From the NCBI RefSeq assembly GCF_026000115.1, contig NZ_AP026867.1, forward strand, positions 5,134,001-5,198,000: 64,000 bases of DNA. The letters run 5' to 3'. The translations under genes were made by a program, and so were the position numbers. Position 1 is the stretch's first letter, and each line of letters opens with the position of its first letter. This document shows, in pieces, positions 4,794 through 50,165 of the stretch. The notes below the pieces were generated by a model. That model had not been told where the DNA came from. It ran no database searches and was given only the letters and a program-made list of their open reading frames with translations. This DNA is from Aureispira anguillae. Lineage in GTDB: Bacteria > Bacteroidota > Bacteroidia > Chitinophagales > Saprospiraceae.

Positions 4794-7430
4794 CTAATTA
4801 ATTTCTCCTCCTTCTCCACCATCACCATTGCTGCTACCACTTCGTAAACGGCTGGCATTTTTAGAGCGTCCATCCCGAACATTAACTTTACCAAAACGAT
4901 ATGAAAAACGCAGTTCAAAAACAGGCGACTCCCATTGATGTTTCCCTGATTGCGAAAAGGAGCGCCCATCAGAAGTCTCAAATTGATACTGCCCGCCCAA
5001 TATTGGGTTCCGAACACTTAGTGTTACTGTTCCTTTGTTTTTAAGTACCTTTTGGCTAACAGAAAATGAATTCCAAGTGTAACCACCAGTCCAGCCCTGT
5101 GCTACTTTGGTTGGAATAGAATACCAAGCATAGAGCGAAATACGCATGCCAAATTTAAAGACAAAATTCATGTTTACATTCACATTTCCAGCAATTGCAT
5201 TAACAGAATAATCTTCATTTACATTGGTTCCATCTTGAATATTTTGGTACACAGACCCCGTAAGTCCAAAGTTCCACCATTTAAAAGGCACAAAGCGAGT
5301 CACCAATTCACCTCCCCACATATGGCTCGTACTAAAGTTGTAATGGGTAAGTACAGAAACGCCATCTTGACGTAAAGTTCTTAGTCGTACGATTTGGTCT
5401 GTATTGTACTTATAAAAAGCCGTTAACATAATTGTATTCCCTCCTTTCCAATAATTGACATAGCTTAATTCAACTGCATTGGTGTATTGTGGCAATAAAT
5501 AAGGGTTTCCATATCTCAAATTCAACGGATCACTATAGCTTGGAAAAGGGTTTAATGCCCAAGTAGATGGGCGTTGTATTCTTCGGCTAAAGCCCAATTG
5601 TACTTGTTGATTTTTGGGCAATTCGTACGATAGATGTACCGAAGGAAATATACTGGGATAGTTGTTTCTAAAGGTAGAATCAGTTGGATAAACCAAACGA
5701 GAATCTGCCAAAGTATATTCACCTCTTAATCCTAATTTGTAGCGAAATTTACCAATTTGCTGTGCAAAAGTTGCATAGACCGCATGGACCTGTTCTTGGT
5801 ATTGAAAATTATTGGTTCGTCCTGTATCGTTCAACATTTGCATTTGGTTATAATCAAAGGATTCAGAACTAAAATCATTGCCTAACCAACGAATATTGCC
5901 CTTATAACCAACCTCTAATTTCATTTTTTTATTAAAGGGGTGGGTATAATCAATGCGCATGGTTCCTTGGTGCATTTTGTTGTAATTGGTGGTATATTGA
6001 GAATCAGGCGTGCTGTTTGCCTCTGTCCAATCGGGTAAATACAATTGCTCTGAAAAGGTTTCAAATTCCGAATTGTTATTCATAGAATACTGCAAATCAA
6101 TCACCAGTTCTTGTTTGTCTCCCATTGTTCCTGAACGTCCCCCTGCACGACCATCTCCGCCACCATGCCAACGTCTTCGTCCCTTTCCATAAGAATCTTT
6201 AGAATTGTCACGGCGAGTCACTTCCTCTTGATTATTTTTATCTTTTTTCTTTTGTTTAAAAACTTTAGCATAAACGAGATTATACGTCATACTAAAACGG
6301 TTCCGACTACCATCATTTATACGCTCACTAATGGACATTTTTAGTTGATTGGCATCTAAATAGTCATACTGTATGTTACTACTATTCCCACCGCCACTTG
6401 GTCGAAGACGGGCTGCAATGGTTAAGGTATTATAGTCATCAAAATAATAATCCATTCCTATGCGAGCCATAGCTCCATTTCGAATTCTTTTTCTATCTGT
6501 AAACTGTTCTAAAAAGGAAGTATCTGTGGGTAAGGTAGTGGCTCTATAGTTATAATTTCGGCTATAGCTTTCTCTATAATTATAACTAAAGTTAGAAAAG
6601 ATATTGATTTTGTTGTTTCTAAAATTTAAACTCAAACCACCTCTATACTTTCCAAAGGGCACCCAAGTAGAGGTTCCAATAGAAACATTGGCAGACCCTG
6701 TGAAGCCCTCTAAAACATTCTTTTTTAGTACAATATTAATAATTCCAGAGGCACCTTCTGGATCATATTTGGCAGATGGGCTGGTAATTAATTCTACTTT
6801 TTTTACTGTATTGGCAGGCAATTGATCCAATATTTCTGCTTGGCTATCTCCTGTTAATCCTGTCGGTTTTCCATTGATATAAACCTGCACAGCAGCACCC
6901 CGAATTTTGACAGCACCATCAAAGTCAACTTCTACCGTTGGTGTATTGCGTAATATTTCCGTTGCATTCTCACTATCGCCCAAGTTCGTTTTATCTACAT
7001 TAAAAACTCTTTTATCTAATCCCAATTGAAAAACTGCTTTGTCTGCTGTAACCTCTGCTGTTTTTAGGGTAGCTTCTGTTGGAGCAACATAAATTTTTTC
7101 TAAATCAACAGTAGGCTGATTCGGAAATATCTTTAGCATTGGGACGGTATACGTACTGTAGCCCATATAACTAATGGTCACTCGATGTCTGCCAATTGGC
7201 AATTGATCAATTTCAAACTTTCCTTTCTCATCGGTTATCATTCCCCCCACCAAAGCAGAATCACGCATTCTAAAAACAGAAACAGTAGCAAATTCTAAGG
7301 GCTTCTGGCTAATAGAGTCATAAACGGTTCCACTAAGCTTTCCTATTTTGGGCATTTCTCGTCCCCCAGGCTGTGCCTGACCAATAACTATTAATGAGAT
7401 GAATAATAAAGTAGTAAATAAAGATTTCAT
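4794..7430 (-). CDS. TonB-dependent receptor (outer-membrane beta-barrel family)
   Basis: An 878-residue outer-membrane protein: signal peptide (1-19, ending GQAQ), a carboxypeptidase-regulatory-like domain (about 30-110, LSGTVYDSISQKPLEFATV), a plug with RGAAVQVYINGKPTG, and a C-terminal barrel of the OMP_b-brl_3 type. Two oddities are an Arg/Gly/Lys-rich insert (about 395-440, RRDNSKDSYGKGRRRWHGGG) and a Gly/Asn/Ser-rich tail after the last strand. It is the last gene of the minus-strand run holding the RiPP-like locus, 167 bp downstream of the HExxH-like gene, so it could handle that product; this is inference. The ligand cannot be told from sequence. Confidence 0.85.
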   Translation of the reverse strand: MKSLFTTLLFISLIVIGQAQPGGREMPKIGKLSGTVYDSISQKPLEFATVSVFRMRDSALVGGMITDEKGKFEIDQLPIGRHRVTISYMGYSTYTVPMLKIFPNQPTVDLEKIYVAPTEATLKTAEVTADKAVFQLGLDKRVFNVDKTNLGDSENATEILRNTPTVEVDFDGAVKIRGAAVQVYINGKPTGLTGDSQAEILDQLPANTVKKVELITSPSAKYDPEGASGIINIVLKKNVLEGFTGSANVSIGTSTWVPFGKYRGGLSLNFRNNKINIFSNFSYNYRESYSRNYNYRATTLPTDTSFLEQFTDRKRIRNGAMARIGMDYYFDDYNTLTIAARLRPSGGGNSSNIQYDYLDANQLKMSISERINDGSRNRFSMTYNLVYAKVFKQKKKDKNNQEEVTRRDNSKDSYGKGRRRWHGGGDGRAGGRSGTMGDKQELVIDLQYSMNNNSEFETFSEQLYLPDWTEANSTPDSQYTTNYNKMHQGTMRIDYTHPFNKKMKLEVGYKGNIRWLGNDFSSESFDYNQMQMLNDTGRTNNFQYQEQVHAVYATFAQQIGKFRYKLGLRGEYTLADSRLVYPTDSTFRNNYPSIFPSVHLSYELPKNQQVQLGFSRRIQRPSTWALNPFPSYSDPLNLRYGNPYLLPQYTNAVELSYVNYWKGGNTIMLTAFYKYNTDQIVRLRTLRQDGVSVLTHYNFSTSHMWGGELVTRFVPFKWWNFGLTGSVYQNIQDGTNVNEDYSVNAIAGNVNVNMNFVFKFGMRISLYAWYSIPTKVAQGWTGGYTWNSFSVSQKVLKNKGTVTLSVRNPILGGQYQFETSDGRSFSQSGKHQWESPVFELRFSYRFGKVNVRDGRSKNASRLRSGSSNGDGGEGGEIN

Positions 7431-7597
7431 GATTTATCCTATTGATAATATTTGTAATGTTCTTGGGTGCTGCCCCAAGTGTGAATAAATGACTGCGTCA
7501 TTTAAGACAGCAATAGGATTACTTGGTTTAATTTAATAATAGGATAAAGGACAAAGTGTTCTATTTAATAGATAAACCATCTAATTTTATCGATTGA

Positions 7598-8794
7598 TTA
7601 ACTCCATTTTAATTCACCTAAAGGGTTATCTCGTTTAAATTTTTGATAGTTAAATACCACAGGATGAGATGCCATATCAAAGTCAAAAAATGAAGGATTA
7701 TTCTTAATGTTATTGTCCAATTTTTGGTAATAATGGGAAAAAAGAGCCTGCCCTTTAGGCGTAAAAACGGTTGTCAAGGGAATTTGCTCTAAGCCAATAT
7801 TATGGCGATTCTTATTGATTGCAATTCTGCCCTTTAATTCGTGCAAAATCTCTGGGTCAAATCCTGGGTTTTTCTTTATTATTTCCAAAAATGAATCAAC
7901 AATCTGCCCCGTAGTATAAATCCCATGCAAGGCACTATATAAGGTTCTATCGTCCTCATTGTTCAAATAGTTGCCAATTGTCTCGTTATGATTCACCAAA
8001 AAGAATTCTTCTATATTGCACGTCATTGCATTAAAGACAATATGGGAACATTGATGGATCAATTCCTCTAGGAAAAAGGTGACATTGCTGTTTTCATTTA
8101 CATTTAAATAAGTTGTTCCATGTGCCTCACGAGTAGCAAAATTCCTAAGTTCAGAAGAGGAAAAAAGAATAATCTTTCGAGTACTTAAGGCATATTTCTC
8201 AAATTCATTGGGCAAATGTTCTTTTAGCAAGGCTAATGCCTGCTCCAAAGCGATTTGAAACGGTTCAACAGCGATGGGGGCAGTAGATAATAATTCGTTG
8301 ATGAGCGTTGCTTTGGCATTGGGCCAAGCATAAAACAAATCTTCAGAATGTGGATCAATCGAACTACTCAACTCTATAGAAGGGATTGTTGTTAAATAAT
8401 TGATGGGTAAAAAATCAAATACCACACGTTCCTCCCCCTGTTTTAGTACAATTGTATTGCGTTCTGGTTGATAATTTAATTCAAAAAAAGTGCTTGGCTT
8501 CTCCGTTTTTAGGTAACCATAATTGGGCAAATAAACCACCCCATTTTGATTTGAAAACACCTTAAATTGCAAGGGCTTATGTTCTAATTCAGCATAACCA
8601 AATAAGATCTGCTGATTCGTCATTTTTGGATTTTTTCTGCCACAGTAGCCAAATAATAAAGGCTCTAGAAAGATTTTATCGTCGTAAAAATCTAGCCGTT
8701 CAAAAATAGTGGAATCTTCTTGATACAAAGCAGTTTTAATGATGTCACAAAAACTTCCTTGCCCATCTATTAACAATTTTCTTTCGTTATCCAT
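7598..8794 (-). CDS. HExxH-type peptide hydroxylase-like protein (variant HQCSH motif)
   Basis: A 398-residue protein with a helical core around EELIHQCSHIVFNAM (H247, H251), followed by NHNE and DDRTLYSALHGIYT (about 281-294). The spacing and the later 'DxR...LHGxY' segment match what I recall of the HEXXH-containing peptide-modification family (alpha-ketoglutarate-HExxH beta-hydroxylases), here with Gln in place of the Glu. In that family the two histidines would bind iron. The gene starts 7 bp after the methyltransferase-like gene ends, so they are co-transcribed. Predicted role: modification of the precursor peptides encoded at 13984-14870. Because of the E-to-Q change and remote similarity, activity is uncertain; it could be an inactive scaffold. 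Confidence 0.5.
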   Translation of the reverse strand: MDNERKLLIDGQGSFCDIIKTALYQEDSTIFERLDFYDDKIFLEPLLFGYCGRKNPKMTNQQILFGYAELEHKPLQFKVFSNQNGVVYLPNYGYLKTEKPSTFFELNYQPERNTIVLKQGEERVVFDFLPINYLTTIPSIELSSSIDPHSEDLFYAWPNAKATLINELLSTAPIAVEPFQIALEQALALLKEHLPNEFEKYALSTRKIILFSSSELRNFATREAHGTTYLNVNENSNVTFFLEELIHQCSHIVFNAMTCNIEEFFLVNHNETIGNYLNNEDDRTLYSALHGIYTTGQIVDSFLEIIKKNPGFDPEILHELKGRIAINKNRHNIGLEQIPLTTVFTPKGQALFSHYYQKLDNNIKNNPSFFDFDMASHPVVFNYQKFKRDNPLGELKWS

Positions 8795-8801
8795 GGTTTA
8801 T

Positions 8802-10076
8802 TTATTTTAATGCTATAAAATTGGACTCCAATAGCTCTTGTAAAATCGCAAGGAGTTGCTCCTTCTCTTCCTCTATTATATCAGAAATTTCTAACTGCCA
8901 AAGGATCTGTTCTAAGGTAGTTTTGCCATCTATCTTCAACATCAGCTCGTAAATAATTTCAGGAAGATCGTATGCTTTCTGATGGAAACTTGCAGCATAG
9001 CTCGCCTCCATGCATTTACCATCCTTTGCCCGCCTTGTTACCCTTAACTCAACCGCATTATTAACCACTAGAACATCCGAAAGCGTAAGTCTTGCTTGAG
9101 CATCCCCCTTCTGAGCAACAAAAAACCAGTTATCATACATGCGATAACGCATACTGTTAGGGTTAAATAGATGCCTAGTTGCCAAAAATTCATTGGCTAG
9201 AATACGATAGCCCTTTTTTTGAAAAAACAACGCTACCTCTTCCGCAGATAGCATTTCTAATTCTGTATTAAAGAAATATTCCAAGGGACCAAAATGAATA
9301 AACAATCCATTGGCTGCCAGTAAACGATCCAACTCTCCAAACAAGACATTCAAGGGCAATACATCTGTAAAATAAATAGAATAGATGTGATTAATAGCCC
9401 CCTGATCTAATGGAATATTGGAAGCTTGAGCAATAAAAAAGTTAACTTTTTCGTCAATGGTTCTAACTTGTTCCTCCGTCATTTTCAAAGTGACTCGTTG
9501 TATCGTATCCTCTATTGTTCGACAGTTTCGCAACACTTTTTGTACCACCTCCCAAGTTCTCACCTTTTTTAGATGATTAATACTCCATATCATAAACAAA
9601 GAAGCATCAAAAGCATCTACTTGATTATATCTATACGCTAGATCCACTGCATACCGCCCTGTTCCACAGCCTAGGAAAAGCGCACTAGGTGCTGCTGAAA
9701 CATTCATTGCTTGTAATTTTTCTTCTAAGAAGGAATGAATTATACCATATTGGTCATAAGTGGAGTTATGCCCCCAATCCCTAATCAAATAACCAAAGGA
9801 AAAAGGCGTGGCAGATTCGTAAGAAAAAGACTGCACTTCCTTGGTAAGCAGTGTTTCTTTTGCAACCAAAGGGTACAGTTCATCTTTTATTTTAGTATAA
9901 ATATTTTTATAAAATAAATTCGCCTCTTCTATCAAAGCAATTCTTCTCGCACTTATGCCATTATCAATTGCTAGATGCTCTTTTTGCGGTACAGTTTGAC
10001 CGTGCAAGCCCTCCATCCTAACAAGATAATTGAGCCAATACGCCTTTTCATCATCTGTTAAATTGTCAAAAACCAT
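8802..10076 (-). CDS. Carnosine N-methyltransferase-like (N2227) enzyme with PqqD-like C-terminal domain
   Basis: This 424-residue protein has two parts. Residues 90-320 show a class I SAM fold with GCGTGR (136-141) as motif I. Around it lie signatures of the N2227/CARNMT1 family: GYLIRDWGHNSTYDQYGII (95-113; family form QFVRDWS...ER...YxPI), ASLFMIWSINHL (158-169; family GNEWSFFMLFSSN) and FIHFGPLEYFF (259-269; family INLGPLLYHF). Known members methylate histidine imidazoles of carnosine or of proteins. Residues about 340-424 (ELRVTRRA ... YELMLKIDGKTTLEQIL) look like a PqqD-type winged helix, the RiPP recognition element that binds leader peptides. Position between the exporter and the HExxH-like gene fits modification of CHDH-core peptides. 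The fold is confident; the histidine target is inferred. Confidence 0.7.
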   Translation of the reverse strand: MVFDNLTDDEKAYWLNYLVRMEGLHGQTVPQKEHLAIDNGISARRIALIEEANLFYKNIYTKIKDELYPLVAKETLLTKEVQSFSYESATPFSFGYLIRDWGHNSTYDQYGIIHSFLEEKLQAMNVSAAPSALFLGCGTGRYAVDLAYRYNQVDAFDASLFMIWSINHLKKVRTWEVVQKVLRNCRTIEDTIQRVTLKMTEEQVRTIDEKVNFFIAQASNIPLDQGAINHIYSIYFTDVLPLNVLFGELDRLLAANGLFIHFGPLEYFFNTELEMLSAEEVALFFQKKGYRILANEFLATRHLFNPNSMRYRMYDNWFFVAQKGDAQARLTLSDVLVVNNAVELRVTRRAKDGKCMEASYAASFHQKAYDLPEIIYELMLKIDGKTTLEQILWQLEISDIIEEEKEQLLAILQELLESNFIALK

Positions 10077-10119
10077 TGTTATTTTTATTATAAGATTGAT
10101 TCTTTGAATTCGGAATCGC

Positions 10120-11409
10120 TTAATTCTTTAAAAAATTAAACATTCTCCCCAACAAAGAAAGGTTCTCTGTTATTACTTCTGCCACCCCTATTAGCTCCTG
10201 TTTTTGTTCTAATTCCTGCCCAGAGCTAGTGAGCAATTGGTCGGGCAATTCAACTTTTAGTAAATAAGTCCCATCTTTGGGAACGTTGGTGATCGACAAA
10301 ACTCGTCCCTTTAATGTTCCAAATTCATGATAAGGGTAGTTGGCTAATTTAATAATGACCGATTGATCGACCTTAACTTTTCCTGAATTTCCAATTGGCA
10401 TTTTCACCCAAGCAAAATAAGTTTGTTTTCCACTAGGACTAATCGTAAAAACGTGTTGTTCTTTGGTCAAAAATTGTCTTTTAGATCGAATATCGTACAT
10501 ATTCAAAATACCATCTACAGGAGCCACTAATACATTGGTTTGTGTCCACTCTCTCAATAAAAAAAGCAGGCGATTAAAACTACTTAAGATATTATTCCTC
10601 AACAATAAGTATTGGTCTGACTGCTCAATTACCAAAGAAGAATTTTCTTTATTAATTACCTCTTGTTGGAGTTGAGCTTTTAGCATAGCACTATTGAGTT
10701 CTTCTATTTGGCTTTTGAGCGCCAACCATTGTCGTTCCTTTTGTTCTACTTCAATTTTGGCAGAAGCTTTATTTTTGAAGAGTTCTTTTGTCCTTAGATA
10801 AGCACTATAAACCAACTCCTGTTCTTGCTCCAACAATTCTTTTTGCTTTGCTAAGTTCAATAAGATTTTATCCAAGTTTTTGGTTCGATTGTTATTGATA
10901 CCAATTTGCAAAAATTGAGGATTTAGCTTTTTAAACAATTGGTACTCGCTAATATTCCGAATTAAATTTAAGTACTCATCGTTCAGGGTACCTAGCCGCA
11001 AATGGTCATCCAATTGAATGGCATTAATTTTCTCCCAAAAATCAGTTCCATCTAATTTTTCCACCAAATCCATTAAGGCTAAGATACTCTTGTATTCTGC
11101 ACTATTATTCAAGACCAAAATCCAATCGTCCTTTTTAACAAGCTCTTTATCCTGTTTGAGTATGTGTGCAATTTGACCGCTACTTTCACTATACACATCA
11201 ATAGATGGATCTTCTGTCAAAACAGTAGCTTCAGAAATAATCACATCTGGGTATTCAATTGCCCATAAGCCCAAGAGCAACAAAACAAAAATTATAAAAA
11301 AGAGCGTATTTCCCCAGCTAACAATCCAAGAAGGTGTTTTTTCTAGAATGTCTTGAAAAAAATAACTCTTATCTTCTATTCTCAGTATTTTATCTTTATC
11401 AATTGCCAA
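10120..11409 (-). CDS. HlyD-family periplasmic adaptor of the peptide exporter
   Basis: 429 residues: short cytosolic N-terminus, one transmembrane segment (about 32-50, NTLFFIIFVLLLLGLWAI), a biotinyl-lipoyl-like segment (SSGQIAHILKQDKELVKKDDWI), long alpha-hairpin coiled coils (about 170-255), the returning lipoyl half (VLVAPVDGILNMYDI) and a beta-barrel domain (LKGRVLSITNVPKDGTYLL). This is the membrane-fusion adaptor of type I peptide export. Its first codons overlap the last 11 bp of the C39 ABC transporter, so the two are translationally coupled. An outer-membrane TolC partner is not in the window. Confidence 0.85.
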   Translation of the reverse strand: MAIDKDKILRIEDKSYFFQDILEKTPSWIVSWGNTLFFIIFVLLLLGLWAIEYPDVIISEATVLTEDPSIDVYSESSGQIAHILKQDKELVKKDDWILVLNNSAEYKSILALMDLVEKLDGTDFWEKINAIQLDDHLRLGTLNDEYLNLIRNISEYQLFKKLNPQFLQIGINNNRTKNLDKILLNLAKQKELLEQEQELVYSAYLRTKELFKNKASAKIEVEQKERQWLALKSQIEELNSAMLKAQLQQEVINKENSSLVIEQSDQYLLLRNNILSSFNRLLFLLREWTQTNVLVAPVDGILNMYDIRSKRQFLTKEQHVFTISPSGKQTYFAWVKMPIGNSGKVKVDQSVIIKLANYPYHEFGTLKGRVLSITNVPKDGTYLLKVELPDQLLTSSGQELEQKQELIGVAEVITENLSLLGRMFNFLKN

Positions 11410-13645
11410 GTTCTAGTTGATTTTTTATAAGTTGATAATAAGATCCTCTTTTGTCAATTAGTTCATCATGTGTTCCAACCTCTTTGATGGTTCCCTGATC
11501 CAAGACTACAATTTGATCTGCGTTTTTGACCGTACTCAGCCTATGCGCAATAACCACTACCGTCTTCCCTTTACAAAACTCATCCAAATTATCAATAATA
11601 GTTCGCTCATTATTGGCATCCAAAGCACTAGTAGCCTCATCAAAAAATAAAAATTCTGGATTTTTATACACCGCTCTTGCAATCAAAAGCCGCTGTCGCT
11701 GTCCACCACTCAATGTACGCCCACTAGACCCAGCAGGACCAATCATTGAATTAAATCCCGAAGGCAAGCTATTAATCAGTTCTTCGATGTTCGCCACCCT
11801 TACCGCTTCTAGCAGTCGATCTGTATTGATCACATCATTGGGTGCGGATTCTGTAATATTATTCGTTACATTATCTGAAAAAATATACCCTTCTTGTAAA
11901 ACGGTGCCACACAAAGCCCTCCAATTGTTGGTATCAATATGGTTAAGGTTGGTATTGCCTATCCTCAAAGCGCCTTCTGTTGGCAAGTATAATTTTAGCA
12001 ACAACTTAATTAAGGTCGTCTTTCCACCACCACTATTGCCAACAATAGCCGTTGTCTTTCCTTTGGGTATATGTAGGTTAATATCTTTTAATACTAAGTT
12101 CCCCATATCTCCTTCATAAGAGAAGTTGACATTTTCAAGCACAATATCTTGCGCCTCCTTTGGCAAAGTCAGTAAGTTTTGCTCGTTCAATAATTTTTCT
12201 TCAGGATTAATAAAGTCTATTTCGCCAAAACGCTCAACACTTAATTTAGCATCCTGAACCAACCTAAAAAAACCCACCAAATTCCACAGAGGAACATTTA
12301 CCTGCCCAACAATATACTGTATCGCCAACATGGTTCCCAGTGTAATCTGCCCCTGAATCACCAATAAAGCAGCCGCAAAAGTAATAGAAATGTTTTTGAG
12401 TTGATTGATAATATCGCCCCCTATAGATTGAAACAGCCCCACTTTGAGGGTAGAAATAGCCGTTTTATAATAACGTACCCGATTCTTTTCCCAACTCCAA
12501 GTATGTCTGGTCTCGGCTCCATTTACTTTTACTTCTTGTATCCCATTAACAGTCTGAATGAGGGTAGAATTGATATTAGAAGAAGCATCAAAACGTTTAA
12601 AATCTAGTTCTTCCCGTTTTTTCATAAAAAACCAAACCCACCAAACATAGGCGATGATTCCCACAATAAAAATTCCTAAGATCAAGAGGCTATAATAAGC
12701 TAGAATGACCAAAAAAATCAAGGCATTGATATAAGAAAATATCTGCCAAGGTGCCTCATTCAAAAAATCTTCTAAACGCTTGGACTCATTAATACGCTGT
12801 AAAATATCGCCTGGTGTTTTGCTATCAAAAAAAGAAACTGGTTTTTTGAGCAATTTGGTCAAATAATCGGAGGTGACTAACATACTTGTTCTAGAACCAA
12901 TGTACAAAAGCAACCAACTTCTAATGATATTTAGGAAAGAAGAACTTAGAAAAAGAACTAGCTGTGCTAACAATAAAACATAGACAAAATTTAGATCGCC
13001 ATAATTAATCCCCTTATCCACCAATGCTTGCGTAACAAAAGGTATAATCAGTTGTACGATCATCCCAATAAAAACGCCAATAAAAACCTGTATTAGGTAC
13101 TTTTTATGGCTATTTAAGTAAGGCAAAATAATATTCAGCCCACTTGGCTTTTTATCATCTTCTTGCTCATAAAACTTAGCAGTAGGCTCCAATAAGATGG
13201 TCATTCCTCCTTGGCTATCATCTACTCTATTGTTATTTTGCCAAGCTTTTACAAACTCTTCTTTGGTATAGGTAATCAGACCATAAATAGGATCTGCTAC
13301 GTACACTTTGTTTCGCTTAATTTTATGTACAATGACAAAGTGCCGATCTCTCCAGTAAACAATACAAGGCAAAGGCGCTTCTACCGCTAAGGTTTCAAAA
13401 TCAATCAAAGCTGGTATAATATGAAAGCCTAAATCTTCTCCTGCTGCAATTAGATTTTTGGCAGATACCCCATCTGGACCAATTTTGCATTTGTACCGAA
13501 GGTGTTCCATACTTAAGTTTTTTCCATAAAACTTAGCTAACATCCTTAGACAAGTTGGCCCACAATCAAATCGATCTGTTTGTATAAATACAGGAAATTT
13601 ATTGGGAAATAACAGTTGTTTTATCTTTTTTGAAACGGAATACAT
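11399..13645 (-). CDS. Peptidase-containing ABC exporter (C39 PCAT)
   Basis: A 748-residue bacteriocin-type processing exporter. The C39 cysteine protease occupies about 15-140: catalytic Cys in DRFDCGPTCL (C28), His in WRDRHFVIVH and Asp in VADPIYG. Six transmembrane helices follow (about 175-450), then the ATPase: Walker A GNSGGGKTT, signature LSGGQRQR, Walker B FLFFDEATSALD and switch His in VIAHRLS. Such proteins cut leader peptides after a double-glycine-type motif and export the core. All catalytic residues are present. It lies directly downstream of four precursor genes whose leaders end in VLGD, and upstream of the HlyD adaptor, so it is the expected maturation and export engine of this locus. 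Confidence 0.9.
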   Translation of the reverse strand: MYSVSKKIKQLLFPNKFPVFIQTDRFDCGPTCLRMLAKFYGKNLSMEHLRYKCKIGPDGVSAKNLIAAGEDLGFHIIPALIDFETLAVEAPLPCIVYWRDRHFVIVHKIKRNKVYVADPIYGLITYTKEEFVKAWQNNNRVDDSQGGMTILLEPTAKFYEQEDDKKPSGLNIILPYLNSHKKYLIQVFIGVFIGMIVQLIIPFVTQALVDKGINYGDLNFVYVLLLAQLVLFLSSSFLNIIRSWLLLYIGSRTSMLVTSDYLTKLLKKPVSFFDSKTPGDILQRINESKRLEDFLNEAPWQIFSYINALIFLVILAYYSLLILGIFIVGIIAYVWWVWFFMKKREELDFKRFDASSNINSTLIQTVNGIQEVKVNGAETRHTWSWEKNRVRYYKTAISTLKVGLFQSIGGDIINQLKNISITFAAALLVIQGQITLGTMLAIQYIVGQVNVPLWNLVGFFRLVQDAKLSVERFGEIDFINPEEKLLNEQNLLTLPKEAQDIVLENVNFSYEGDMGNLVLKDINLHIPKGKTTAIVGNSGGGKTTLIKLLLKLYLPTEGALRIGNTNLNHIDTNNWRALCGTVLQEGYIFSDNVTNNITESAPNDVINTDRLLEAVRVANIEELINSLPSGFNSMIGPAGSSGRTLSGGQRQRLLIARAVYKNPEFLFFDEATSALDANNERTIIDNLDEFCKGKTVVVIAHRLSTVKNADQIVVLDQGTIKEVGTHDELIDKRGSYYQLIKNQLELGN

Positions 13646-13983
13646 AAAGTAAGGTTAAGCCTCTTTTGGGATATGGGACATGTACGAATAAACAGTATGG
13701 AAAAACGTTGGGCACGAATACTCACAAGCACTAAAGTCTTTGTTACACAATGCCTTTATCAAAAGTATTTCGAATATACTATAAATATTAATACTTCAAT
13801 GCTTTTTGACAAAACATATACTAAAAATCAAGTTTAGATGCTTTTGATAAACATTCTTGTAACGTTTTTGCTCAATTGCTATGATCCTATCATAAAACAC
13901 GACTTCTGTTCTATGAGAAACCTTCTCGTATAGCCCTAAAGCCATAACAAGAAGGTGCTCTATCTTCAGTAAAAGGGAGAATT
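13646..13983 (-). other. 338-bp gap between precursor array and exporter, with a long hairpin
   Basis: No gene was found. An imperfect hairpin spans 13915-13960: GAGAAACCTTCTCGTATAGC pairs with GCCATAACAAGAAGGTGCTC with a few mismatches. It has no T-run on the minus strand, so rather than a plain terminator it may be a 3' stabiliser or partial stop that lets the precursor genes be expressed above the exporter genes, as is common in peptide loci. No TAnnTTTG promoter for the exporter was noticed in the gap. Confidence 0.35.
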
Positions 13984-14118
13984 TTATCTAGCAAAATCTA
14001 CTTGAACTTTGTGATCGTGGCAATCTCCTAGTACCTGTCCTAGTAGTTTGTCGGTTGCAGCTTGATCGTCTTTTTTCAAATTCTTTGACTTGAAGTCATC
14101 CAATTTTAATCGTTTCAT
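13984..14118 (-). CDS. RiPP precursor peptide, copy 1
   Basis: A 44-residue peptide missed by length cut-offs. It starts MKRLKLDDFKSKNLKK, continues to TDKLLGQVLGD, and ends with the predicted core CHDHKVQVDFAR. The start resembles the Lys/Leu-rich leaders (MKKLxLxxL) of Bacteroidota RiPP precursors. L25 and V29 sit at -7 and -4 relative to a G-D pair where C39 substrates usually have G-G. Copies 1 and 3 differ by one residue, V40 versus A40. It is the last of four tandem copies, on the strand of the exporter and modifying enzymes, 338 bp before the exporter. Confidence 0.85.
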   Translation of the reverse strand: MKRLKLDDFKSKNLKKDDQAATDKLLGQVLGDCHDHKVQVDFAR

Positions 14119-14172
14119 TGTTTAAATTTTAATTGCGATGCTTACTCTTTTTAGGATTTTCAGCTTGCTCCT
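14119..14172 (-). repeat. Conserved upstream segment of precursor copy 1
   Basis: About 55 bp directly 5' of the start codon, reading GGAGCAAGCTG...AAAATTTAAACA on the minus strand, recur nearly unchanged before copies 2 and 3 (14364-14420, 14622-14680) but not before copy 4. This shows that copies 1-3 arose by duplication of a unit containing gene plus leader. A translation or transcription role is possible; no TAnnTTTG box was seen in it. Confidence 0.55.
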
Positions 14173-14234
14173 GTTTTAATCTGTACTTGGTTGTTAAAAG
14201 CTATCCCCCTCTCTAATAGAAGGGGATAAACCTA

Positions 14235-14363
14235 TTACTCTGCAATTGCAGCTTTGTGATCATGGCAATCTCCTAGTACTTGTCCTAGTAATTTGTCAGT
14301 TGCGGCTTGATCGTCTTTTTTCAAATTCTTTGACTTGAAGTCATCCAATTTTAATCGTTTCAT
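14235..14363 (-). CDS. RiPP precursor peptide, copy 2
   Basis: A 42-residue peptide with the same first 37 residues as copy 1 (MKRLKLDDFKSKNLKK ... VLGDCHDHK) but a different tail, giving the predicted core CHDHKAAIAE. The near-total leader conservation, including many synonymous sites, against a changed C-terminus is the classic sign of a leader/core precursor. The start codon is fixed by alignment with the other copies and the conserved 57-bp upstream segment. The gap to copy 1 is 116 bp. Confidence 0.85.
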   Translation of the reverse strand: MKRLKLDDFKSKNLKKDDQAATDKLLGQVLGDCHDHKAAIAE

Positions 14364-14420
14364 TGTTTAAAATTTTAATTGTGATGCCTACTCTTTTCAG
14401 GATTTTCGGCTTACTCCTTT
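14364..14420 (-). repeat. Conserved upstream segment of precursor copy 2
   Basis: Same segment as before copies 1 and 3, with one or two base changes (GTAGGCATCACAATTAAAAT next to the start codon). It carries GGAGTAAGCC at its far end, which is too distant from the ATG to act as its ribosome-binding site. Confidence 0.55.
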
Positions 14421-14486
14421 TCAATTTTCCACTGTTTTGAATAATTCGTAGGTATCCTCTGTTTTAACAGAAGGACAAAAACCTAT

Positions 14487-14621
14487 TTATCTAGCAAAAT
14501 CTGCTTGAACTTTGTGATCGTGGCAATCTCCTAGTACCTGTCCTAGTAGTTTGTCGGTTGCGGCTTGATCGTCTTTTTTCAAATTCTTTGACTTAAAGTC
14601 ATCCAATTTTAATCGTTTCAT
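14487..14621 (-). CDS. RiPP precursor peptide, copy 3
   Basis: A 44-residue peptide, leader as in copies 1 and 2, predicted core CHDHKVQADFAR (one substitution from copy 1). The pair shows that the array is evolving by tandem duplication and small core changes. One Cys and two His are kept in the core. It sits 123 bp upstream of copy 2. Confidence 0.85.
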   Translation of the reverse strand: MKRLKLDDFKSKNLKKDDQAATDKLLGQVLGDCHDHKVQADFAR

Positions 14622-14680
14622 TGTTTAAAATTTTAATTGTGATGCCTACTCTTTTTAGGATTTTCGGCTTACTCCTTTTA
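14622..14680 (-). repeat. Conserved upstream segment of precursor copy 3
   Basis: Third copy of the roughly 57-bp segment that precedes copies 1 and 2; nearly identical to the one before copy 2. Confidence 0.55.
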
Positions 14681-14711
14681 TTATGATTCGCTTAGCGAAA
14701 GAATTATTAGA

Positions 14712-14870
14712 TTATCGAATATTCTGAATTGAAGCTTTAGCAGAGCCCTCCCGTGTATGTATATGGTCGTGACAATCTCCTAAGACTTGCCCTAGTAATT
14801 TGTCGGTTGTTGTCTGGTTCTCTTTTTTCAAATTCTTTGACTTAAAATCATCTAATTTTAATCGTTTCAT
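14712..14870 (-). CDS. RiPP precursor peptide, copy 4 (most diverged)
   Basis: A 52-residue peptide, first in transcription order. Its leader differs at a few sites (KKENQTTTDKLL instead of KKDDQAATDKLL), and the predicted core is longer: CHDHIHTREGSAKASIQNIR, with three His. Its upstream DNA is unlike that of copies 1-3, so it is probably the founder or an older copy. It begins 118 bp after the aldo/keto reductase stop. Retention of CHDH in all four copies, while everything after it varies, marks these four residues as the functional or modified site. Confidence 0.85.
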   Translation of the reverse strand: MKRLKLDDFKSKNLKKENQTTTDKLLGQVLGDCHDHIHTREGSAKASIQNIR

Positions 14871-14988
14871 CGTTTTAATTTTAATATTGAAATTGTAAAG
14901 CTAGTTGTGTTTAGGGCACAAGCATCCCTTGGATTAATTGTACTTACAATCAATAACCAATACGTCAAACTTTTTTAAAAACAAACCA

Positions 14989-16278
14989 TCAAGACATTGA
15001 CATTACCCTATTAAATTCTCCATTTAACGCTAACACATACGCTGGTTTTCGCAAGCCTACCAAGACATGATCCAACAAAGATTCATTTAGATAAGCATGA
15101 CAAGCTGTCAAAACGCTATTTTCTTTTATTGAAGTGCCCTCCTCTTCTAAAGCAGCTAAAAACTGCCTTGTTTTATTCGTTTGTGCCTGCAAAGCATATA
15201 GAACCGTATACCTATGTAGTTCATTTAGCATCGGTTCAAATTGTTGCCAGTCTTCTTCAAAAATAGTCGTTAGAAAAGGATTCATTTGTGCTGCAAAAAA
15301 AGCATCAACAGCTCCTTTAGATTTAAAATTAGTATAGTATTTTTCTAGTAACTGAATGGGTTCAAAATCACTGCCTTTGCTCTCCCCATTGGTTAATTTA
15401 GCAACTCGCTGGTTAACCTCTTTCAAAAACAGTTCTATGCAAGCCTTAGCGGCTATAGCATTCAGATCCGATAATTCTTTTTCATGGGTAACCAACCTGA
15501 ATTCAAATCCATTTTCATTCATATTTAAAGGTCGATTACCAATTGTAATCAATCCATTATCTTTGGCAAATGCTAAAAGCGATTGCTTATCATAATGCAT
15601 TTCTAAGGCCATTTTTTCTTTAAAATTGAAAGGAAATTGAATGAATTTAAAATGATGTTTATTGCGGATTGATGCTGCAATCTCTAGCAATCGGGCACAA
15701 TCAATTGCCCCCTTTGCCTGAGGATTAAACATACAATTCGAACTAACACCATAATATCGGATTTTACCTTCCTCAACTTTTTCTTCCAACAACTCAAAAG
15801 CCTTTGTTATAGACTGATAGAGTTGAGTTGGGCTATTTAAATTTTTGCTCTGCAAGTAACGTTCAGGATTATGCAATAAATAAACATCTATGTACTCCCG
15901 ATTTAACTTTCTTAAGCTATTTTCTAACTGATAAGCAATAAAATTAGGATCCAAAGAATACTCAAAATCGTTTTCAATAACGGCAATTTCAGCAACATTT
16001 TGTTCCAAAAAACCAGCAAAGGCTTTTGTTTGTAAATTTTTGCTTGGGATATAGCCCGCTTTTGATACAATAAATAATTGTTTGCTGTATTCGGGGTACT
16101 GTTGTATAAATTGCCCAATTAATACCTCCGACTCTCCCCTAGAATAATTAGTTGCTGTATCAATTAAGTTATACCCATGTTTGACCGCAGTATGCAAAGC
16201 ATCAAAATGTATGCGATCCTCTATACCCATCCGATAAGTTCCAATTCCGACTGAAGACAAATTAGTTATTTCAACCAT
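14989..16278 (-). CDS. Aldo/keto reductase at head of RiPP-like locus
   Basis: 429 residues, longer than the usual 320-350. The AKR tetrad is intact: D40 (IDTATNY), Y45, K73 (VSKAGY) and H136 (LLHNPER), so it should reduce a carbonyl with NADPH. The extra length is a C-terminal helical part (about 300-429). It precedes the precursor array on the same strand without a visible terminator and has a good promoter about 280 bp upstream, so it may be the first gene of the transcript. It could act on the peptide or on a small molecule joined to it, or be an unrelated neighbour; the sequence does not decide. Confidence 0.75.
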   Translation of the reverse strand: MVEITNLSSVGIGTYRMGIEDRIHFDALHTAVKHGYNLIDTATNYSRGESEVLIGQFIQQYPEYSKQLFIVSKAGYIPSKNLQTKAFAGFLEQNVAEIAVIENDFEYSLDPNFIAYQLENSLRKLNREYIDVYLLHNPERYLQSKNLNSPTQLYQSITKAFELLEEKVEEGKIRYYGVSSNCMFNPQAKGAIDCARLLEIAASIRNKHHFKFIQFPFNFKEKMALEMHYDKQSLLAFAKDNGLITIGNRPLNMNENGFEFRLVTHEKELSDLNAIAAKACIELFLKEVNQRVAKLTNGESKGSDFEPIQLLEKYYTNFKSKGAVDAFFAAQMNPFLTTIFEEDWQQFEPMLNELHRYTVLYALQAQTNKTRQFLAALEEEGTSIKENSVLTACHAYLNESLLDHVLVGLRKPAYVLALNGEFNRVMSMS

Positions 16279-16793
16279 GTACTATACGCTGTTGTTTCAA
16301 TTGTATTATTACTGTTTGTGAGATCGCTATTGTTTAGTTGAGGCAATACACTGCCTATACATCAAACTGATGATTAACCTAGGATTACACTTCCTTAATT
16401 CATTATTATCGTAAAAGAAATTGATAGGACTTCAGGTTCTTTTACCTGTTCTACTTTATAACTTATTTTGCGTCCCTAGTTATAAACAAATGAAAACTAA
16501 CTGGCTTCAAATTATTTAAAATCGTATAATTTAGAATACACATTATTAACTTTCGTATCCAAATATAAATGGAAAATATAATTATTGCAAGCCCCAATAG
16601 CTCCTTTAAGTTTTTAGCAACTTTTTCAACTATTTATTAGTTCTTCAAAATCAGCATTTTAAGCCAATAACATTGTTTAAAATAATATTTATATTATGAA
16701 ATATTTAACAAAACACCTATTTATATAACCCTATATAATAGGTTATCAGATTGTGTTTTTACTTCTTTTTCTAAGGAGCAAAAAAGCAAACGA
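16279..16793 (-). other. 515-bp intergenic region with candidate locus promoter
   Basis: No gene was found between the SixA-like gene and the aldo/keto reductase. The stretch is very A/T-rich and holds the candidate promoter at 16560-16590, leaving a leader of roughly 280 nt before the reductase start. No known riboswitch pattern was recognised in that leader. Confidence 0.4.
16560..16590 (-). promoter_or_regulatory. Candidate Bacteroidota promoter for the RiPP-like locus
   Basis: On the minus strand, TTG (16590-16588) lies 20 bp before TATATTTG (16567-16560), matching the -33 TTG / -7 TAnnTTTG pattern. It is the only exact TAnnTTTG box noticed in the gap upstream of the aldo/keto reductase. 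Confidence 0.5.
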
Positions 16794-27689: not shown

Positions 27690-29096
27690 ATGTATAACAG
27701 CAAACTTATCCACATTCTAAAAGTTTTCCATTCTGAGGAAAAAGAACGACTCAAAAAATGGGTCAATTCTCCTGCTCATAACCATCGATCCGATCGAAAA
27801 AAGTTGCTCTTATACTTAATTTCCAAACGAAATCTAAGCAAAAGAACAACGGATCGATATAAGGTTTATCAACATATTTATCCAGCTCAACCTTACCAAG
27901 ATGCCAAGTTAAAACGATTGATGAATTTAGCGGTTCAATTACTGGAGCAATTTATTCACTTTTCATCGCAATTAGAGGATCCTTTTTCGCAGCAAAAATC
28001 ATTGATTGAGTTTTTTAGAAAGCACAATTTGGACAAATATGCCGAGCAATATATTTACAAAACAGTACAGTTACAACAACAAAACTCTATAGAGAACAGT
28101 GCTCATTTTCAGCGTCAATATCAGTTAGAAACACTCATTTTTGAGCAACAAAATGCAACCGTTAACCGTGGAAAAACCAACCTACAAGCTGTTTTTGATC
28201 AGCATTATCTCACTTTTATCTTAAATACCCTTCAATACGCTTGCGAAGCCATTACCCATCAACGCTTGTATAAGTCTACTTACTCCATTCCTTTATTAGA
28301 GCAAATTCTTGCAGATATTGAAACGGGTAACTACGATTCTGTCCCAGCCATCCAGATGTATTACCACAGCTATATGGCCTTAAAATACCCTCATAAAGAA
28401 GAGCATTTTGAACTGCTTCAAGCACTAATGATTAAGCATTATGCTATACTCCCTCCTAAGGAAATCAAAAGCATTTATCTGATTGCTATTAACTATTGTG
28501 TGCAACAACTGAACAATGGAGTCGAAAAATACGTCCGTGCTGTGTTTGAATTGTATCAATATGGCTTAAAACACACCATCTTGATTGAAAAGGGAATTCT
28601 AAGTCGGTTTACTTACAAAAATATAGTTGCTGCTGCTATTCGGCTAGAAGAATATACTTGGGTACTCCAATTTATAACCCAGTACACGACCTATCTAGAA
28701 GAGCACTACCAGAAACCCTATGCCCTATATGGCAATGCTAAGTTGCTTTTTGCTCAGGGGCAATTTGATGCTACCTTACAACTCTTAACACAGGTAGAAT
28801 TTGATAATATATTTTTGAGTATGGATGCCAAAACAATGCTCTTAAAAATTTACTATGAACAAGAACATTTTGATGCATTAGATGCTTTACTAGTTAGTTT
28901 TAGGCGTTTTTTACAACGAAAATCAGTTCTGGCGTATCAAAAGAAAATCCATGAAAATATGATTAATCTAACCACCAAATTGTTAAACACTCCAACCTAT
29001 AACAAAAGCAAATTACAGGCACTTCGCCAAGAAATTATGGCCACCAACCCCTTAACAGAAAAACCTTGGCTATTAGCCCAAATTGATAAATTATAA
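27690..29096 (+). CDS. All-helical protein of unknown function (paralog 1)
   Basis: 468 residues, predicted almost wholly helical, without signal peptide or membrane segment. The most conserved stretch shared with the gene at 36214 is PKEIKSIYLIAINYCVQQLN followed by NGVEKYVRAVFELYQYG; both also end with NPLTEKPWLLAQ. The repeated helices resemble TPR-like scaffolds, but no named family is recognised. The gene is divergent from an LRR/T9SS gene 124 bp away in both copies, so a shared role is likely. It probably works in the cytoplasm. Confidence 0.7.
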   Translation: MYNSKLIHILKVFHSEEKERLKKWVNSPAHNHRSDRKKLLLYLISKRNLSKRTTDRYKVYQHIYPAQPYQDAKLKRLMNLAVQLLEQFIHFSSQLEDPFSQQKSLIEFFRKHNLDKYAEQYIYKTVQLQQQNSIENSAHFQRQYQLETLIFEQQNATVNRGKTNLQAVFDQHYLTFILNTLQYACEAITHQRLYKSTYSIPLLEQILADIETGNYDSVPAIQMYYHSYMALKYPHKEEHFELLQALMIKHYAILPPKEIKSIYLIAINYCVQQLNNGVEKYVRAVFELYQYGLKHTILIEKGILSRFTYKNIVAAAIRLEEYTWVLQFITQYTTYLEEHYQKPYALYGNAKLLFAQGQFDATLQLLTQVEFDNIFLSMDAKTMLLKIYYEQEHFDALDALLVSFRRFLQRKSVLAYQKKIHENMINLTTKLLNTPTYNKSKLQALRQEIMATNPLTEKPWLLAQIDKL

Positions 29097-36089: not shown

Positions 36090-36201
36090 AAAAAGTATTG
36101 TCATTTGCAATAGAGTGTAATAATTGACACAATTATATTCTAAAATGCGATAATTTTCAACGACAAAAAATAAAGTTTATCAGAAAATTATGTATTTATA
36201 C

Positions 36202-36209
36202 TATCTTTG
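36202..36209 (+). promoter_or_regulatory. -7 element 5 nt before the start codon (likely leaderless)
   Basis: TATCTTTG is an exact TAnnTTTG box at 36202-36209; the ATG at 36214 follows after 4 nt. It parallels 27678-27685 and argues for the start at 36214 over the in-frame ATG at 36190, which would lie upstream of the box. Confidence 0.5.
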
Positions 36210-36213
36210 TTTT

Positions 36214-40657: not shown

Positions 40658-40721
40658 AAATATAGGATTTACTGGATGATAAACAACCCCATTGCAAAGC
40701 CAAATATCAAGCCATATCAAA

Positions 40722-49816: not shown

Positions 49817-49853
49817 GTAATGTTTAATAATTTTCTAAAAAAAACAACAATAA

Positions 49854-49885
49854 TTTGCATTTATAAAAAAAGCATCGTACATTTG
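49854..49885 (+). promoter_or_regulatory. Promoter of initiator tRNA copy 1
   Basis: TTTG (49854-49857), 20-bp spacer, TACATTTG (49878-49885): both boxes match the Bacteroidota consensus exactly. The tRNA starts 12 bp downstream. Confidence 0.75.
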
Positions 49886-49896
49886 TACTCACAAAA

Positions 49897-49968
49897 CGCA
49901 GAGTGGAGCAGCGGTAGCTCGGCGGGCTCATAACCCGTAGGTCGTAGGTTCGAGTCCTACCTCTGCAA
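49897..49968 (+). tRNA. Initiator tRNA-Met(CAT), copy 1
   Basis: A cloverleaf of 72 nt folds with anticodon loop CTCATAA (CAT). Two marks make it the initiator: position 1 C faces A72 (unpaired C1xA72) at the acceptor end, and the anticodon stem has the three G-C pairs (GGG/CCC) that let it enter the ribosomal P site. The discriminator base is A; CCA is not encoded. It carries its own promoter and terminator. Confidence 0.93.
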
Positions 49969-49973
49969 CTATT

Positions 49974-50008
49974 AAGCTTCAAAACAGTAATTGTTTTGAA
50001 GCTTTTTT
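49974..50008 (+). terminator. Terminator of initiator tRNA copy 1
   Basis: AAGCTTCAAAACA (49974-49986) pairs perfectly with TGTTTTGAAGCTT (49992-50004), followed by T-rich sequence. Confidence 0.85.
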
Positions 50009-50045
50009 CTTTTTTTAAGAATTTTTTATTTTTTAAGTGCAATAA

Positions 50046-50077
50046 TTTGCATTATAAAAAAAAGCATCGTACATTTG
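50046..50077 (+). promoter_or_regulatory. Promoter of initiator tRNA copy 2
   Basis: TTTG (50046-50049), 20-bp spacer, TACATTTG (50070-50077); same as copy 1. Confidence 0.75.
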
Positions 50078-50160: not shown

Positions 50161-50165
50161 CTATT

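Follow-up and report, generated by a model that had tools for sequence, protein, structure and literature searches.

We investigated a gene cluster at positions 7598–16278 of a 64,000-nucleotide stretch of the Aureispira anguillae genome (the window), in which all genes lie on the minus strand. The cluster and its immediate neighborhood comprise the following features.

4794..7430, minus strand: outer-membrane beta-barrel protein OMP_b-brl_3, adjoining the cluster (PF14905, E 2.9e-100)
7598..8794, minus strand: HEX, an alphaKG-HExxH-type oxygenase-like protein of 398 aa with the motif H247-Q-C-S-H251 (sub-cut-off TIGR04267 match, AF2 model, Foldseek)
8802..10076, minus strand: MT1, a CARNMT1-type SAM methyltransferase (~residues 1–323) with a C-terminal RRE-like tail (324–424) (PF07942, PDB profile matches, Foldseek)
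8802..9107, minus strand: tentative RRE/PqqD-like leader-binding tail of MT1 (predicted secondary-structure order; AlbA E 0.024)
10120..11409, minus strand: HlyD-type periplasmic adaptor (PF13437, E 5.4e-12)
11399..13645, minus strand: C39 peptidase-ABC exporter, with leader removal and peptide export as its predicted roles (PF03412 (Peptidase_C39), E 2.3e-31; PF00664; PF00005)
13984..14118, minus strand: precursor 1, motif GQVLGDCH, tail DHKVQVDFAR
14205..14226, minus strand: weak terminator-like hairpin directly 3' of precursor 2 (hairpin scan)
14235..14363, minus strand: precursor 2, motif GQVLGDCH, tail DHKAAIAE
14487..14621, minus strand: precursor 3, motif GQVLGDCH, tail DHKVQADFAR
14712..14870, minus strand: precursor 4, motif GQVLGDCH, tail DHIHTREGSAKASIQNIR
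14989..16278, minus strand: aldo/keto reductase (PF00248, E 2.9e-31)

The initial annotation had placed the precursors, the C39 exporter, the HlyD adaptor, the methyltransferase and an HExxH-like protein on one strand, and our gene calls bore out both this layout and its coordinates. The HlyD and ABC genes share an 11-base overlap. The aldo/keto reductase gene (14989–16278) lies inside the range first noted and had gone unnamed there. A hairpin scan of 7400–16700 returned 10 terminator-like hairpins (shuffle mean 5.8, sd 2.6), and a promoter scan was uninformative (39 found versus 33.2 expected). By looking at the sequences, we also noted a beta-barrel counterpart of similar size and with a similar start in the corresponding position of two congeners (L042 and L043); the barrel may be either a cluster partner or conserved synteny.

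The four precursor genes encode peptides of 42–52 residues in which a conserved leader precedes a variable C-terminal part, beside genes for modifying enzymes, as is characteristic of a RiPP system. NCBIfam models gave no useful match to these peptides. Between copies, the codons of GQVLGDCHDH vary at third positions and at one Leu first position with the residues unchanged, and the tails diverge; such synonymous-only variation indicates that the window precursors are under amino-acid constraint.

One question raised at the outset was whether any other genome pairs these genes. Thirteen further Bacteroidota loci pair MT1, HEX, C39 and HlyD with Cys-His peptides, and the four genes occur together in 14/14 distinct Bacteroidota MT1 loci, window included (the count leaves out L018, from a Legionella MAG without the gene set, and L004, which is the same locus as L017). 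Given that gene set and motif recur in all 14 loci, the arrangement in the window is not a matter of chance. That the cluster is a degenerate or chance assembly with no peptide product is extremely improbable: although the window precursors carry Gln where most have Gly, and a decaying copy exists elsewhere (L025, with a HEX remnant covering 48/385 positions), the window frames are all open and tightly packed, the motif codons differ synonymously between copies, and homologous loci with open frames lie in 13 other places.

In all 14 loci the precursors share the form Gly-[Gly/Gln/Ala]...Cys-His, followed by a variable tail. A pattern built from these positive loci retrieved 32 ORFs in 14/14 loci, and a leader-only model, from which the motif columns had been removed, retrieved 33 ORFs across the 14 loci, 32 of them with Cys-His; the sole exception is a weak match (E 0.035) without a GG site. 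Among 34 precursors, conservation ends directly after Cys-His and the tails have no shared residue. The residue preceding Cys is Ala in 21, Asp in 12 and Thr in one, which leaves Cys and His as the constant candidate targets of HEX. Gly-Gly stands at the aligned site in 23/34 precursors, with one more offset by one residue (L008), and Gly-Gln in 10/34, including all four window copies. Numbered from this site, Leu is found at –4 in 32/34 and at –7 in 22/34 precursors, as is usual for the end of a C39 leader. The P1 residue in the window would be Gln, not Gly, and Gln at P1 is unusual for C39.

We considered whether the Cys-His end might be mainly leader, recognized by HEX, MT1 or the exporter, with the real substrates in the variable tails. 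The abrupt break in conservation after Cys-His and the further Cys, His or Asp in many tails would fit such an arrangement; it is, however, decidedly unlikely, as the Leu positions put Cys-His in the mature part, the tails share no residue and some offer few targets (for example, DHKAAIAE), and the MT1 fold class works on imidazoles. It is also quite unlikely that the products are metal-binding, metallophore-like peptides whose ligand set is tuned by His N-methylation. Cys-His together with extra His, Cys or Asp in several tails (CHDHIH in the window; CHHDHD and CHCC in L015) is consistent with this idea, as is the outer-membrane barrel gene adjoining the cluster in the genus, but several other tails hold no further His or Cys (for example, L013 and L016), and the barrel adjacency, seen in the genus only, may be plain synteny.

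The association of the motif with the enzymes was assessed in control loci, using all small ORFs. The Cys-His pattern occurred in 0/1652 small ORFs of 20 LanB loci without HEX/MT1 (20 of 21 LanB loci; contig ends truncate three of these, and the one not used as a control, L024, carries HEX), and in 0/322 small ORFs of five grasp-with-spasm stretches, where three precursor-like ORFs were recognized (L074–L076), two of them near-identical. A leader filter applied to the 20 LanB controls kept 16 ORFs in 8 loci, none with Cys-His, one of which (in L115) is not leader-like. As a positive control, the HEX, MT1 and aldo/keto reductase models found 15, 14 and 8 of 16 loci, and 0/20 in the controls. 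Two genomes with full TIGR04193 SPASM proteins (G682 and G687) have LLGQVLGDCH precursors where grasp-with-spasm genes lie beside MT1/HEX, and none at their other grasp-with-spasm loci. Similarly, of the LanB loci in G166, the one with HEX encodes GGLMADCH, and the three others lack any such ORF. We therefore rejected Cys-His as a general trait of LanB or grasp-with-spasm precursors; judged by sequence, the controls show it to be a short, searchable motif marking clusters of the MT1/HEX kind. Locus L024 has HEX and a Cys-His precursor with LanB/LanC and without MT1, hence the conservation of Cys-His is not attributable to MT1 alone. In L037, GGIMHACH lies beside LanB-like and grasp-with-spasm genes, HEX/MT1 are absent from the 20 kb read, and the same genome has HEX/MT1 at another site (L005). 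Separately, a precursor match in G265 was dropped as chance, as it stops before Cys-His and no RiPP genes were seen around it.

The initial proposal that no common RiPP class fits holds for the window and fails for some of its relatives. A search for LanB dehydratase (PF04738), which detected LanB in 15/198 genomes, gave no match in the window genome (G000), and for TIGR04193 this genome has no full-length protein, only a lone 44-position sub-cut-off match far from the cluster. By contrast, MT1/HEX and Cys-His are coupled to LanB/LanC in L008 and to grasp-with-spasm genes in L042 and L043. Bacteroidota class I lanthipeptides and grasp-with-spasm systems do share GG-type leaders with the MT1/HEX loci, but the window genome is without their LanB or full-length SPASM_w_grasp protein, and their control loci are without Cys-His precursors.

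Next, we examined the two modifying enzymes. MT1 matched PF07942 CARME (E 1.9e-14, 54.1 bits, cut-off 27), and a PDB profile search matched CARNMT1 and OvoM/OvsM. When the MT1 model was compared with the PDB by Foldseek, ranks 1–19 were all carnosine N-methyltransferase, OvoA, OvoM or OvsM, histidine-methylating proteins of the carnosine, ovothiol or ovoselenol type, each containing an imidazole N-methyltransferase; the predicted fold agrees with the imidazole N-methylation inferred earlier. The likeness to the CARNMT1/N2227 and OvoA/OvoM enzymes extends to the histidine-contacting Asp: CARNMT1 D316 hydrogen-bonds histidine N3 (PMC6971037), and the aligned D238 of MT1 is invariant (12/12). The residue aligned with CARNMT1 H347, which fixes ring orientation for N1 selectivity, is Phe268 in MT1, and the alignment therefore does not imply N1 specificity for MT1. 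MT1 further differs from these enzymes in its place in a RiPP operon, its extra RRE-like tail, and its presumed peptide substrate rather than a dipeptide or amino acid.

The suggestion that MT1 ends in a PqqD-like domain survived in part. The predicted order of the tail (E335–338, E344–351, E354–364, H372–381, H388–394, H402–417) and its AF2 model (blocks pLDDT 68–85) have the three-strand, three-helix order of a winged helix. The tail gave no match to Pfam PqqD (PF05402), however, and is missing in 6/14 loci. Sub-threshold matches to RRE-bearing families were found for 4/7 tails (AlbA E 0.024), and hhalign with small alignments gave P 0.16 for a LanB match on the RRE region and 0.34 for PqqD, both within the range of four control proteins (0.13 to 0.6). 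The leader-binding tail is thus putative, weakly supported and optional.

HEX matched TIGR04267 at E 0.0043 (17.1 bits, under the 40-bit curated cut-off), and relatives reached 9.2e-6 and 1.6e-6, both also under the cut-off. On five of the 15 HEX proteins, this model gave four matches below the cut-off (best 28.3 bits) and no match for L009; the HEX profile had no match among PDB sequences. In a Foldseek search of the PDB with the AF2 model of HEX (pLDDT 87.9), only 22ob SjiH (E 6.0e-10) and four chains of 8s5f ChlB HExxH (E 4.0e-7 to 1.7e-6) fell below E 0.001, with moderate TM-scores (0.47–0.58) and high rmsd (7.8–11.1). The predicted fold agrees with the alphaKG-HExxH oxygenase chemistry inferred earlier. 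Of the HExxH-like motif first reported, both His residues are present in 15/15 proteins, and the Glu is replaced by Gln in 10/15, window included (HQCSH). We set aside a protease function for HEX on account of this substitution and of the oxygenase-type character of the significant fold matches. HEX resembles the alphaKG-HExxH RiPP hydroxylases (TIGR04267/IPR026337; ChlB, BpmH, PflC/PosC and PesO) in predicted fold, His-x3-His, and adjacent short precursors and exporter. It differs in its sub-threshold scores, the Gln, its CARNMT1-type partner and Cys-His precursors, and in that no radical SAM fusion or MNIO gene was seen in the window cluster. Known targets of the HExxH family are His, Asp, Phe, Gln and Pro (PMC13060819).

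The aldo/keto reductase, as called from sequence, is part of the gene set in at least 8/14 loci, and none was seen in 6/14 as fetched. Residues D40, Y45, K73 and H136 are invariant in seven sequences and presumably form the usual catalytic tetrad.

Collectively, our results suggest that the locus is probably a RiPP cluster with a new enzyme combination, in which MT1 would N-methylate, and HEX beta-hydroxylate, the His of Cys-His ahead of C39 cleavage and export. A short double-glycine-type leader would deliver the precursor to the enzymes, probably partly via the RRE-like tail of MT1. MT1 would then N-methylate the imidazole of the constant histidine, and HEX, as an Fe/alphaKG HExxH-type enzyme, would oxidize the Cys-His unit, with His beta-hydroxylation the most likely outcome. 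The gene set, its recurrence, the tie between motif and enzymes and the predicted enzyme folds are shown here, whereas the target residue, the order of steps, the cut site and any product activity are what we infer. The reductase may adjust a carbonyl group, either of the peptide or of an intermediate, which is the least certain step. After modification, C39-ABC/HlyD would cut at Gly-Gly (Gly-Gln in the window) and export a product whose [V/I]-L-G-x-Cys-His* cap is constant and whose tail varies.

A different use of the unit, in which HEX links Cys to His (or to the backbone) or cuts the backbone by oxidation at Cys-His, is unlikely. The unit would then be a processing site, the tail being released or re-ended and the reductase reducing the resulting carbonyl. 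The HExxH relatives PflC/PosC oxidatively cut the backbone at a C-terminal ARMD motif, and an alphaKG enzyme is able to crosslink Cys with Tyr (PMC12636437); conservation stopping directly after Cys-His, and a reductase that requires a carbonyl substrate, are in line with such chemistry. On the other hand, the tails of L008 and L024, which hold Ser/Thr and Cys beside LanB/LanC, resemble retained cores, and a ring between adjacent Cys and His would presumably be strained.

The His modification proposed here has a precedent. Thioamitides contain a bis-N-methyl, beta-hydroxy His, and thiostreptamide S4 is a RiPP with His both N-methylated and beta-hydroxylated, as proposed for the window (PMC8153245). 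The thioamitide enzymes for this residue are unrelated (TsaG, PF06325; TsaJ, PF05721), thioamitides also have YcaO/TfuA thioamidation and an AviMeCys ring, and no such genes are in the window cluster. With lanthipeptide or grasp-with-spasm enzymes added in certain relatives, the picture is one of a modular cap chemistry, not an isolated class. It is conceivable, and we put it forward only tentatively, that a dedicated MT1/HEX(/reductase) set places an N-methyl, beta-hydroxy-His cap, [V/I]-L-G-x-Cys-His*, on many cargo peptides, and that enzymes of the lanthionine, grasp-with-spasm, halogenase or other kinds then act further on some of them; that its His is the thioamitide residue, arrived at convergently through unrelated enzymes; and that the cap serves the various peptides as a common head for recognition or metal binding.

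The pairing of MT1 with HEX had no description in the literature searched, and bis-methylated His was, according to PMC8153245, as of 2021 known from thioamitides only. The window, whose genome gave neither a LanB match nor a full-length SPASM protein, holds the simplest version seen, which makes the chemistry approachable with three enzymes and a 42–52 residue peptide. If our reading is true, these loci would add to the RiPPs a family whose single Cys-His unit is the target of both an imidazole methyltransferase of the carnosine type and an HExxH oxygenase, and would offer an enzymatic means of methylating and hydroxylating histidine within peptides.

The cluster lies on the minus strand of the window between positions 7598 and 16278, and its genes are listed here in the order of transcription.

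14989-16278, minus strand: aldo/keto reductase (AKR; Pfam PF00248)
13984-14870, minus strand: four precursors
11399-13645, minus strand: C39-ABC exporter (Pfam PF03412, PF00664 and PF00005)
10120-11409, minus strand: HlyD adaptor (Pfam PF13437)
8802-10076, minus strand: CARNMT1-type SAM methyltransferase, MT1 (Pfam PF07942, carnosine N-methyltransferase)
7598-8794, minus strand: HExxH-like protein, HEX (no Pfam match)

The ABC and HlyD genes overlap by 11 bases, and gaps of 43 and 7 bases separate HlyD from MT1 and MT1 from HEX, respectively. The initial annotation had described a tightly spaced or overlapping gene set on a single strand, as is indeed observed. Its inventory of precursors, C39, HlyD, MT1 and HEX also stands, but the AKR within the same range had to be added.

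Three further features of the window were noted. Two tRNA-Met(CAT) genes lie inside a 192-base tandem repeat (49848-50205; 98% matches, 1.9 copies). Two long proteins, at 24842-27565 and 33546-36110, begin in a similar way (AIPD..FEQRLI.LGIDSDGL). Each adjoins a divergent gene of ~470 aa, and these two genes (27690-29096 and 36190-37620) likewise start alike, an arrangement resembling a duplicated gene pair. Lastly, two neighboring genes at 39221-42158, beta-glucosidase-like by eye, have similar starts (NRR.FI....LGA / PDFKWG.A..AYQIEGAW) and look like a tandem duplication.

MT1 recurs outside the window: it was present in 3 of 395 genomes of the phylum, in one of 299 genomes of the family of G304 (G304 itself), and in 3 of 40 relatives, namely the window's genome and two of the eight same-genus relatives searched. 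A conserved-peptide scan of 84,980 species genomes yielded at least 11 loci. We counted 14 distinct Bacteroidota loci (the window, L005, L008-L017, and the congener loci L042 and L043); L018, from a Legionella MAG, and L004, a duplicate, were excluded. A check for pairing of these genes in other genomes had been proposed, and MT1, HEX, C39-ABC, HlyD and Cys-His peptides occur together in all 14 (exporter and HlyD by sequence look in L042 and L043). AKR was found in eight, and in the remaining six it may be absent or lie beyond the fetched stretch; a second methyltransferase occurs in ten, with none in the window or L008 and none seen in L042 or L043. Per-gene percent identities co-vary across loci (r = 0.76-0.94; 12 loci, 7 for AKR), the pattern expected for genes that move as a unit. 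We also noted a small protein matching L011:5712-6218, either about 170 aa long or part of a fusion, in 10 of 12 compared loci (L005, L008-L011 and L013-L017), and a TPR protein near the cluster in 8 of 12. L024 seems to have both, and neither was found in the window; they are possibly immunity or accessory proteins.

The precursors share a constant Cys-His pair behind a Gly-[Gly/Gln/Ala] site. A pattern search for G[GAQ]-x(2-5)-Cys-His, derived from the same 14 loci, found it in 32 small ORFs of these loci. Because the pattern came from positive loci, we built a second, leader-only model with the last six columns dropped. This model matched 33 ORFs across the 14 loci, 32 of them with Cys-His; the other, in L009 (E = 0.035, no GG site), is probably a chance match. 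When 34 distinct precursors, including those of L071, L024 and L037, were aligned on Cys-His, the residue directly ahead of Cys was Ala (21), Asp (12) or Thr (1), preceded by Gly in 31 of 34 and, a further residue upstream, by Leu (31) or Met (3); no conservation was seen past the His. With the Gly-Gly/Gly-Gln site as reference, Leu occupies position -4 in 32 of 34 precursors and position -7 in 22 of 34, positions that mark the classical C39 leader end. At this site the window and its two congeners carry Leu-Leu-Gly-Gln.

As controls, we used 20 LanB (PF04738) loci from 15 genomes and five grasp-with-spasm stretches. Models of HEX, MT1 and cluster-type AKR, which recovered 15, 14 and 8 of 16 positive-side loci, found none in the LanB loci. 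The Cys-His pattern was absent from all 1652 small ORFs of the LanB loci and all 322 of the grasp-with-spasm stretches; the leader-only model matched one ORF in the former (L106, E = 0.027, without Cys-His) and none in the latter. Within genome G166, the LanB locus with HEX (L024) has a GGLMADCH precursor, and the motif is absent from its three LanB loci without HEX. In the congener genomes G682 and G687, the grasp-with-spasm genes adjoining MT1/HEX have LLGQVLGDCH precursors; in their other grasp-with-spasm loci, precursors were recognized in three (MKIQESKFGQFEAFKV...), all without Cys-His. Collectively, the control and within-genome counts argue that Cys-His goes with HEX, and usually with MT1, rather than with other RiPP enzymes. 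There are three exceptions. L024 has HEX and Cys-His without MT1. L037 (genome G316) has GGIMHACH beside grasp-with-spasm genes and a gene that is LanB-like by sequence look, with no HEX or MT1 within the 20 kb read, and G316 holds both elsewhere. In L025 (genome G170) the HEX locus has decayed: by sequence look, positions 6838-8824 contain a degraded copy of the cluster with a HEX remnant, a truncated HlyD-like frame and a short Cys-His ORF.

A PDB profile search with three MT1s matched CARNMT1 (5yf0, E = 1.8e-6), 5x62 (carnosine N-methyltransferase), OvoM and OvsM, as well as one hypothetical protein (1ve3, 0.0048). For the AF2 model (mean pLDDT 80, pTM 0.70), the 19 top Foldseek matches were solely carnosine N-methyltransferases (5yf0-2, 5x62), OvoA, OvoM and OvsM, each a protein that methylates the imidazole ring of histidine or of one of its derivatives; varied methyltransferases followed among the best 50 of 1642 matches. 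OvoA is bifunctional, and presumably its methyltransferase part is what MT1 matches. For CARNMT1 numbering we assumed an offset of 47, taken from the length of human CARNMT1. In CARNMT1, according to passages of PMC6971037, Asp316 forms a hydrogen bond to N3 of the histidine, and His347 restricts flipping of the ring. In the profile-search alignment Asp316 corresponds to MT1 D238, invariant in 12 of 12 MT1s, and His347 with F268. The modeled fold and the conserved D238 therefore make histidine a well-supported candidate target; this support does not extend to the ring position of methylation.

The end of MT1 had been read as a PqqD-like domain. In keeping with this, the tail forms three strands and then three helices in the AF2 model, and four of seven tails gave sub-threshold matches to RRE-bearing families: AlbA (window, 0.024), PqqD (L012, 0.0071; L009, 0.044) and LanB (L015, 0.028). 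Against it, Pfam PqqD did not match the tail, and these roughly 100 extra residues are present on 8 of 14 MT1s and missing from six. The other three tails had either no match or matches of similar E-value to unrelated families; weak unrelated matches were also seen for the L009 and window tails. We consider the tail a likely RRE. Separately, the Legionella contig L018 (5715-9219) carries an MT1-like methyltransferase (BLAST E = 3.6e-27) flanked on one side by a PqqD gene (PF05402, E = 4.8e-15) and on the other by a gene that, by sequence look only, resembles asparagine synthetase. Given these lasso-peptide-like surroundings, RiPP pathways may have recruited such methyltransferases on more than one occasion.

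For HEX, the HExxH-like label is sustained by both His of HxxxH, invariant in all 15 sequences read, and by fold matches, but the second motif position is occupied by Gln in 10 sequences and by Glu in five. Its match to the NCBIfam alphaKG-HExxH peptide hydroxylases (E = 0.0043) lay below threshold. Five PDB matches to the AF2 model (pLDDT 87.9, pTM 0.88) had E < 0.001, with moderate TM-scores (0.47-0.58) and high rmsd (7.8-11.1): four chains of the HExxH alphaKG oxygenase ChlB (8s5f), and SjiH (22ob), known by its entry title alone, for which an open-access search by name gave unrelated papers. Passages of PMC13060819 and PMC12636437 ascribe to this family hydroxylation of His, Asp, Phe, Gln and Pro, and oxidative backbone cleavage, respectively. 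As the residue ahead of Cys is variable, the constant candidate targets of HEX are Cys and His.

From the cluster genes and the observed linkage of motif and enzymes, we infer the modified residue, the order of steps and the product as follows. The precursor leader would be recognized, MT1 would N-methylate the histidine of Cys-His, HEX would oxidize the Cys-His unit, AKR would reduce some carbonyl, and the precursor would then be cleaved and exported. Thioamitides contain a histidine with bis-N-methylation and beta-hydroxylation, methylation coming first (passages of PMC8153245). Their enzymes, TsaG (PF06325) and TsaJ (PF05721), belong to families other than those of MT1 and HEX, hence a methylated and hydroxylated histidine here would represent convergence.

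The initial annotation was correct in its observation, and its interpretation holds up once amended on three points: the domain at the MT1 tail, the AKR, and how the cluster relates to other RiPP classes. It had held that no common class fits. The window's genome lacks any LanB match and any full-length SPASM_w_grasp protein, and the window is therefore a bare version of the cluster; elsewhere, however, class I lanthipeptide genes (LanB and LanC in L008, LanB in L024) or grasp-with-spasm genes (G682/G687) are added. No description of the MT1/HEX combination, nor of a carnosine N-methyltransferase together with RiPP and histidine, was found among the paper listings and passages covered in an open-access library, which leaves most subscription journals outside; the available passages of PMC9993889, on Chryseobacterium lanthipeptides, do not mention MT1/HEX-type enzymes. 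In the Crocinitomicaceae locus L008 (MT1 42% identical), the GGALLAACH of the precursor leads into a Ser-, Thr- and Cys-rich tail. A tryptophan halogenase is encoded in L012 and a DUF6734 protein in L011, the latter with relatives in L005 and L014. Given these extra enzymes, the MT1/HEX set can be seen as a cap chemistry joined to diverse tail chemistries, and the cluster, with its predicted chemistry, would be a variant new within RiPPs.
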